Shown here piece by piece: positions 6,189 to 41,960 of a stretch of 42,113 bases of DNA; within the stretch, counting starts at the first letter, position 1, and every line of letters starts with the position of its first letter. Origin of the DNA: an uncultured Eggerthellaceae bacterium. Its GTDB lineage: Bacteria; Actinomycetota; Coriobacteriia; Coriobacteriales; Eggerthellaceae. The notes under the pieces were generated by a model, which worked only from the letters and a program-made list of their open reading frames with translations, was not told the DNA's origin and ran no database searches. A program made the position numbers and the translations under genes. The stretch spans positions 1 to 42,113 of the forward strand of contig CAJOIP010000013.1 in the NCBI GenBank assembly GCA_905234785.1. The letters run 5' to 3'.

Positions 6189-6372
6189 TTGTTCGCTCTG
6201 TTTGTCCCGGGTTGCGTATTCGCTTGTCCTCGCACGCTCAGCGGCAAACATCTTGTTGTTCGCTTTCTTCCCTCCGGGCCATGTGCCCGCTTGTCCTCGC
6301 TCGCATGGCGACCTTGGTTGCTGCCATATCCGGCTGCGGAATCGCGTTCACATGGCCCGGAGGGAAGAAAGC
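6189..6372. repeat. Structured repeat with long inverted arms (copy 1) plus a degenerate half copy
   Basis: A perfect 24-bp inverted repeat (6262-6285 with 6349-6372) encloses a 63-nt core. The core words CTTGTCCTCGC and CCGGCTGCGGAATCGC recur in the copy at 41826-41937, whose arms have a different sequence. Both copies are followed by GCTACGCT. Bases 6189-6237 are a degenerate direct copy of 6256-6304, matching at about 35 of 49 positions. This fills the 315-bp gap between the GGDEF and WYL genes; no gene is seen in it. Confidence 0.8.
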
Positions 6373-6461
6373 TACGCTGTTATGCTTCGGTGAATCTTTT
6401 GACCCGCACATTTCCAATGGCGGCGAGCAGGGCTATTGGGAAAGGCAAGGTGGGCCTGTTC

Positions 6462-41814: not shown

Positions 41815-41937
41815 CCCTCTTCCCGCCCCCGGAGGCGGGAAGAGGGGGTCGGGCTTGTCCTCGCCCGCATGGGCAGTGGGGCTTGCCACCATACCCGGCT
41901 GCGGAATCGCCCTCACCCCTCTTCCCGCCTCCGGGGG
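41815..41937. repeat. Structured repeat (copy 2) with three mutually pairing arms
   Basis: A local hairpin (41815-41827 with 41834-41846) follows the kinase stop by 10 nt. Its right arm is also part of a 22-bp perfect long-range arm pair (41826-41847 with 41916-41937). The core between (41848-41915) shares CTTGTCCTCGC and CCGGCTGCGGAATCGC with the copy at 6262-6372, and GCTACGCT follows the last arm. Confidence 0.82.
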
Positions 41938-41960
41938 CTACGCTCTTCCGCTAAGGTCAG

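Follow-up and report, generated by a model that had tools for sequence, protein, structure and literature searches.

The window, the whole stretch of 42,113 nucleotides analysed here, is contig C13 of the 2.26-Mb, 83-contig genome (G000) of an uncultured Eggerthellaceae bacterium. Two palindromic elements lie within it, copy 1 behind a gene for a GGDEF protein and copy 2 behind a gene for a histidine kinase, and their parts are listed in Table 1. Two adjacent tRNA genes, Gln-TTG and Lys-TTT (ARAGORN), were also found on the minus strand at 1693-1854.

Table 1 Features of the two elements in the window, with the exact 8-bp target-site duplications at loci of the G011/G007 subfamily
Feature	Position	Strand	Basis
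Truncated type B copy, probable left half (CTTGTCCTCGCACGCTCAGCGGC)	6200-6245	+	resembles the start of type B copies L026 and L050
Copy 1, 5' foot TTGTTCGC, a degenerate version of CTGTCCGC	6256-6263	+	foot alignment of G000/G004 copies; sequence
Copy 1, 5' arm, 24 nt	6262-6285	+	pairs perfectly with 6349-6372
Copy 1, core 5' half CTTGTCCTCGC	6290-6300	+	conserved across 36 aligned copies
Copy 1, variable loop (type A)	6301-6331	+	length and sequence differ among copies
Copy 1, core 3' half GGCTGCGGAATCGC	6332-6345	+	conserved across 36 aligned copies
Copy 1, 3' arm, 24 nt	6349-6372	+	pairs perfectly with 6262-6285
Copy 1, 3' foot GCTACGCT	6371-6378	+	bottom strand is GTAG adjoining the stem
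Copy 2, 5' arm, 23 nt	41825-41847	+	pairs perfectly with 41916-41938
Copy 2, core 5' half CTTGTCCTCGC	41854-41864	+	conserved in aligned copies
Copy 2, variable loop (type A)	41865-41896	+	
Copy 2, core 3' half GGCTGCGGAATCGC	41897-41910	+	conserved in aligned copies
Copy 2, 3' arm, 23 nt	41916-41938	+	pairs perfectly with 41825-41847
Copy 2, 3' foot GCTACGCTCTTCC	41937-41949	+	foot alignment; sequence
Target-site duplication GCTACCAG	L177		
Target-site duplication CGTGAACT	L180		
Target-site duplication GAAAAGCG	L272		
Target-site duplication GCGTGTAC	L296		
Target-site duplication GTTCTAGC	L306		

The first-pass annotation of this DNA had described perfect arms of 24 bp in copy 1 and 22 bp in copy 2, with a common core and unrelated arm sequences. 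The arms of copy 1 are as described; those of copy 2 are also perfect but are 23 bp long. Both copies share the core words CTTGTCCTCGC and GGCTGCGGAATCGC and the post-stem GCTACGCT. The arms of the window's two copies are indeed unrelated, but this does not hold across the genus, where many copies have a common purine-rich inner arm half (e.g. GGCGGGAAGAGGGG) and differ mainly in the 8-10 or so basal base pairs. The stretch at 41815-41836, which runs into the 5' arm of copy 2 from outside, is a direct repeat (22 nt, 91%) of the 3' arm at 41917-41938, so that the left arm of copy 2 has two possible partners. The probable type B left half at 6200-6245, just upstream of copy 1, for which no right half was seen, is a sign of nested or successive elements.

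From the outside inwards the element consists of a foot (CTGTCCGC), an arm, in many copies a TC/TC mismatch, then 2 or 4 bp, a TTG/ATC mismatch, TCC/GGA pairs and a variable loop that is at times itself a hairpin; beyond the loop follow the mirror half and the second foot (GCTACGCTCTTCC). The feet (CTGTCCGC and GCTACGC) are clear in part of the copies only. These mismatches and pairs (TTG-TCC and GGA-ATC) form the conserved core, the TTG/ATC mismatch being conserved among the aligned copies. Elements are about 110-170 bp long, with hairpins of about 110-130 nt, stems of 20-45 bp and a median arm of 30 nt. The core subfamilies (TTGTCCTCG/CTGCGGAATC, TTGGCTTCG/CTGCAGAATC, GGTACTCGC/GCTGCGTAATC and CTCAAACAGTCCTCGC/GCTGCGGAACTGC) have the same kind of arms throughout, and several have identical feet. 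At the 3' base of 93 hairpins CTAC was the top-ranked tetramer (19 of 93 against 1.0 expected), at a single offset in 17, and GTCC was among the most enriched tetramers at the 5' base; the exact CTAC tag is kept in about a fifth of the copies and is missing from most. The right half (core 3' half, arm and foot) is partially repeated in tandem behind the hairpin at L026 (G000 C38), L190 (G004 C125) and L257 (G000 C10), and another palindrome, of the TTGAACGTTACCCCAGGGGTGATGTTCAA type, lies within the element loop at L194, L196, L199, L242, L246 and L258 in G004.

A DNA search of the window's own genome with copy 1 returned 33 pieces. CTTGTCCTCGC occurs there 29 times, against 4 for the reversed control, and these counts, together with 22 genome places that score as full elements, put the repetition beyond chance. 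Nearly all of the folded copies have one architecture, with long arms differing from copy to copy. The first-pass annotation had proposed a covariance model and a search of this and related genomes. A model built from 36 copies revealed a large family, with at least 22 matches in the own genome, at least 27 in G012, at least 22 in G011, at least 19 in G009, at least 18 in G007 and at least 16 in each of G004 and G157, all of these counts being lower bounds. Most copies have complementary arms, but a few old or decayed ones (e.g. L299 and L296) have poorly matched arms.

Matches to the model were found in 27 of 138 Eggerthellaceae genomes, representing 10 of 48 genera, and in 29 of 298 genomes of a class-wide sample of Coriobacteriia, the matches elsewhere in the class being weaker than those within Eggerthellaceae. 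A scan of GTDB contigs for the core pattern gave 36 stretches, the arm-matched ones of which all belong to Eggerthellaceae or Coriobacteriaceae; those from other phyla, outside Coriobacteriia, were without matching arms and were treated as chance. Many members outside Eggerthellaceae combine this core with a short inner loop (e.g. GTCCTCGCGCTTCGCGCTGCGGAATCG), and their arms measure about 20-30 bp. Repetition, a modular build and a patchy distribution characterise the family. The plasmids and phages searched contained no match to the element, and no description of the family was found in the open-access literature, the part of the literature that was covered; going by that literature, this study adds a previously undescribed repeat family of gut Coriobacteriia.

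The copies are mostly positioned behind gene 3' ends. Of 81 cases with an upstream gene within 200 bp, 61 have that gene on the same strand, and the intergenic settings are convergent in 27, divergent in 10, codirectional sense in 29 and codirectional antisense in 17, all approximate counts since the gene calls are simple ORF picks. In the low-copy genomes (Coriobacteriaceae) it is common for the match to begin 14-34 bp past the stop codon in sense orientation, behind genes as varied as those for S10, PNPase, an aldolase, FtsX, a chaperonin, a LeuA-type protein and Pta. It had been pointed out at first that both window copies follow signalling genes; this is true of the two, but an association with such genes was rejected, as the other copies follow genes of every kind.

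Such a setting would suit a structured RNA at mRNA 3' ends, acting as a stabiliser, a processing site or a non-canonical terminator, with arms that change by compensatory mutation. Besides the same-strand upstream genes and the sense matches close behind stop codons, the conserved internal loops in the core and strong covariation favour this explanation. Across 36 copies, 85.3% of cells are paired compared with 60.6% when shuffled and at most 53% with slid partners, and both sides have changed in 209 cells against 70 in the shuffles. The covariation test suggested in the first-pass annotation bears out its observation that the arms differ yet pair. In a second set of 64 distinct rows, an alignment fitted to the model and thus biased towards it, 89% of cells are paired and 495 are changed on both sides against 170; the core pair 48:139 is C-G in 38 of these rows, T-A in 26 and broken in none.

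The mismatches that remain in the arms tell otherwise. Selection for RNA pairing would tolerate G-U and not A-C, and the arms show the opposite trend: 2204 arm pairs lying at least 8 bp from the tip include 42 G.T and 66 A.C mismatches (p = 0.026 against equality, A.C being the commoner), and the whole-arm tally is 43 G.T and 62 A.C. Eight tRNAs from the same loci, taken as a control, gave 7 G.T and 0 A.C. Arm matching probably acts on DNA letters rather than on RNA pairs, because an excess of G-U is absent from the arms while it is evident in the tRNAs. Further points against an RNA element are that TTTT was found within 12 nt after the stem in 7 of 93 hairpins only, so that most lack this feature of intrinsic terminators, and that a T-tract hairpin resembling a terminator is already present ahead of the element at L016. 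The codirectional sense excess (29 to 17) is modest, and orthologous sites show the element inverted in one case and absent or replaced in many. Rfam, searched at gathering and relaxed thresholds, holds no such family and yielded only two weak animal microRNA matches scoring far under gathering. A transcript function as the main explanation is thus considered unlikely.

The turnover at orthologous sites was followed in G004, the closest genome, where 16 sites were located by flank search (82-95% flank identity) and three more by locus comparison; G004 is estimated to be 9% contaminated, but the flank identity still places the sites in the same lineage. At L020/L103 the element is present in both genomes with cores that agree and mid-arms that differ, in length too, by 8 bp on either side. 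The site of window copy 2 in G004 (L190) has similar feet with a different core subfamily and different arms, and that of copy 1 (L199) has a related 5' arm and a degenerate type B core split by another palindrome, without a 3' arm. The G004 site corresponding to L008 is empty (L195), and at this single clean empty site no derivation of the arms from the target flank was seen. At six G004 sites an unrelated palindrome, ATGAGTAGCAGGACGTTCCTGCTACTCAT, stands in the place of the hairpin. Orthologous sites hence differ by the presence, absence and swapping of elements, and whole hairpins are also replaced by other family members. Two Coriobacteriaceae genomes carry the element in opposite orientations between conserved flanks (L322:2024-2094 and L323:1601-1671), which suggests inversion between the arms, and two very close genomes have an identical copy at another site (L338/L339).

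A palindrome of the ATGAGTAGCAGGACGTTCCTGCTACTCAT kind also flanks a RAYT gene in G004. Next to the RAYT gene at L234 of the same genome is a palindromic repeat family other than the hairpin element (ATGAGTAGCAGGACGTTCCTGCTACTCATTTT, in pairs about 60 nt apart), which also occupies L197, L198, L200, L203, L204 and L205, G004 sites where G000 has the hairpin; its palindromes are probably the REPs of that RAYT.

Transposition itself is recorded in the G011/G007 subfamily, whose elements are 166-168 bp long (typically 167) and end in 12-bp TIRs (GTTACAGTTCAC/GTGAACTGTAAC). Among 16 copies with both ends readable, the 8-bp flanks are identical at five and match in seven of eight positions at two more. 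This subfamily has transposed with TIRs and 8-bp target-site duplications, and since its copies have common arms, the arms travel with the element. No related autonomous element was found, the G011 assembly consisting of 480 contigs and being 70% complete. A scan of the other subfamilies for TIRs and target-site duplications at a loose threshold gave 8 against 3.3 by chance, which does not prove their ends, and TIRs of the GTTACAGTTCAC type were not present in numbers in the other genomes searched. A search of G000 and G004 for feet as a pre-existing target (TGTCCGC beside GCTACGCTC, or empty feet) gave no evidence of these, returning one short core-less hairpin (G000 C17:10962) and two identical coding-like hits in G004.

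It could be argued that mobility is confined to the G011/G007 subfamily because a MITE captured the hairpin there, and that elsewhere the element is old, vertically inherited and reshaped in place. TIRs and duplications proved in that subfamily alone, a TIR scarce in the other searched genomes and the identical copy at one site in two very close genomes would all agree with this. However, G012 has several copies with shared arms at separate places without these TIRs, and orthologous sites in G000 and G004 are unlike in whether the element is there and in the subfamily to which it belongs; restriction to the one subfamily is accordingly regarded as doubtful.

Another candidate is a REP-type element, the folded bottom strand of which would be acted on in trans by a RAYT (TnpA-REP) transposase. 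The bottom-strand GTAG at the hairpin base and the conserved stem mismatches are both REP recognition determinants (PMC8266576), and RAYT-like genes occur in most of the searched genomes of the genus. Nevertheless, no match to a Y1 (IS200/RAYT) gene was found in the own genome, G009 or G157, though these hold at least 22, 19 and 16 copies respectively, and the exact tag is found in only about a fifth of the copies. Y1 transposases are not known to act with TIRs and 8-bp target-site duplications such as those of the G011 subfamily. The RAYT genes found in the genus are flanked by other palindromes. Those lying on one or both sides of the RAYT-like genes at L223, L230, L226 and L237 are of the GGGGACAGTCCCC and CCCCGCGGGAAATCAGTT types, which are likely separate REP families. 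No match to model R1 was found in 20 Y1 loci and no RAYT in the element loci, and a RAYT as neighbour of the element was rejected, none adjoining it. Movement by a RAYT is improbable on these grounds.

The most plausible explanation, to which we assign a probability of roughly 60%, is that the family is a non-autonomous mobile palindromic DNA element of Coriobacteriia with DNA-level arm matching; the alternatives discussed overlap with it and with each other, and their probabilities need not total one. The window copies would have arrived in the same general way as the G011/G007 elements, moved by a recombinase acting in trans; the foot and the conserved mismatches may be what it recognises in the hairpin, which would then probably be a folded single strand. 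During replication one arm may template the repair of the other by template switching at the palindrome, which would keep the arms matched, and exchange of whole hairpins between copies may also act; together these processes would let the arm sequence drift without loss of pairing. Effects on transcripts, if any, would be secondary. The sense orientation behind genes and the class-wide occurrence count against the mobile reading in that they also fit a transcript function.

The first-pass annotation had left the choice between an RNA fold and a mobile palindrome with arms copied one from the other. The mobile palindrome gains from the TIRs and duplications of one subfamily in relatives, and the mismatch spectrum speaks against the RNA fold. 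As for the arms, literal copying of one from the other is the best inference, but replacement of whole hairpins is seen as well and decayed, unmatched copies exist. An improbable extension is that the hairpins are exchangeable cassettes, in which the feet stay at the site while arms and core are exchanged together, and an active, element-linked process on the folded strand rewrites the arms in matched pairs. If true, what defines this mobile element would be not its sequence but its fold, together with a short core. Covariation usually ranks as the strongest evidence that an RNA fold is functional; in this family it is strong without G-U tolerance and goes along with mobility in at least one lineage, which provides a natural test case of RNA selection against DNA-level arm matching. 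The family also marks the 3' ends of genes, with turnover between close species.

Several known systems may be compared with this family. Integron attC sites have conserved outer boxes and belong to a cassette array with an integrase, whereas the conserved parts here are the foot and the loop-near core. The element is similar to a MITE in being short and without a gene of its own, and in the TIRs and 8-bp duplications of the G011/G007 subfamily, but in most subfamilies no common TIR or duplication was found, and it is their ends and arms that vary and the core near the loop that is conserved. Template switching in replication, a known route at palindromes, makes hairpins and keeps them perfect (PMC8794818), and it predicts that several bases change together in the two arms with no G-U intermediates, a point of likeness to the arms here; it was described for RNA genes, and is here a proposal for a mobile repeat family. 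The GTAG- and CGTC-tagged palindromic repeats of prokaryotes are alike in tag and palindrome, but have stems of 5-13 bp compared with 20-45 bp here; the CGTC type is without a dedicated transposase, and Eggerthella, Slackia, Cryptobacterium and Atopobium are not mentioned (PMC3733652). The likeness to REPs and REPINs lies in repeated intergenic palindromes mostly behind genes, with GTAG at the stem base, here in about a fifth of the copies, and conserved stem mismatches (PMC8266576), the TTG/ATC mismatch corresponding to the conserved mismatch or bulge of a REP stem. REPs, however, measure 20-50 nt and have conserved stems, a size exceeded by hairpins of about 110-130 nt in elements of 110-170 bp with stems of variable sequence. 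The element resembles REPs in its mismatches and, in the copies that keep it, its tag, though not in size or RAYT association, and MITEs in its ends, in the G011/G007 subfamily only; we call the family a variant among bacterial palindromic mobile repeats.
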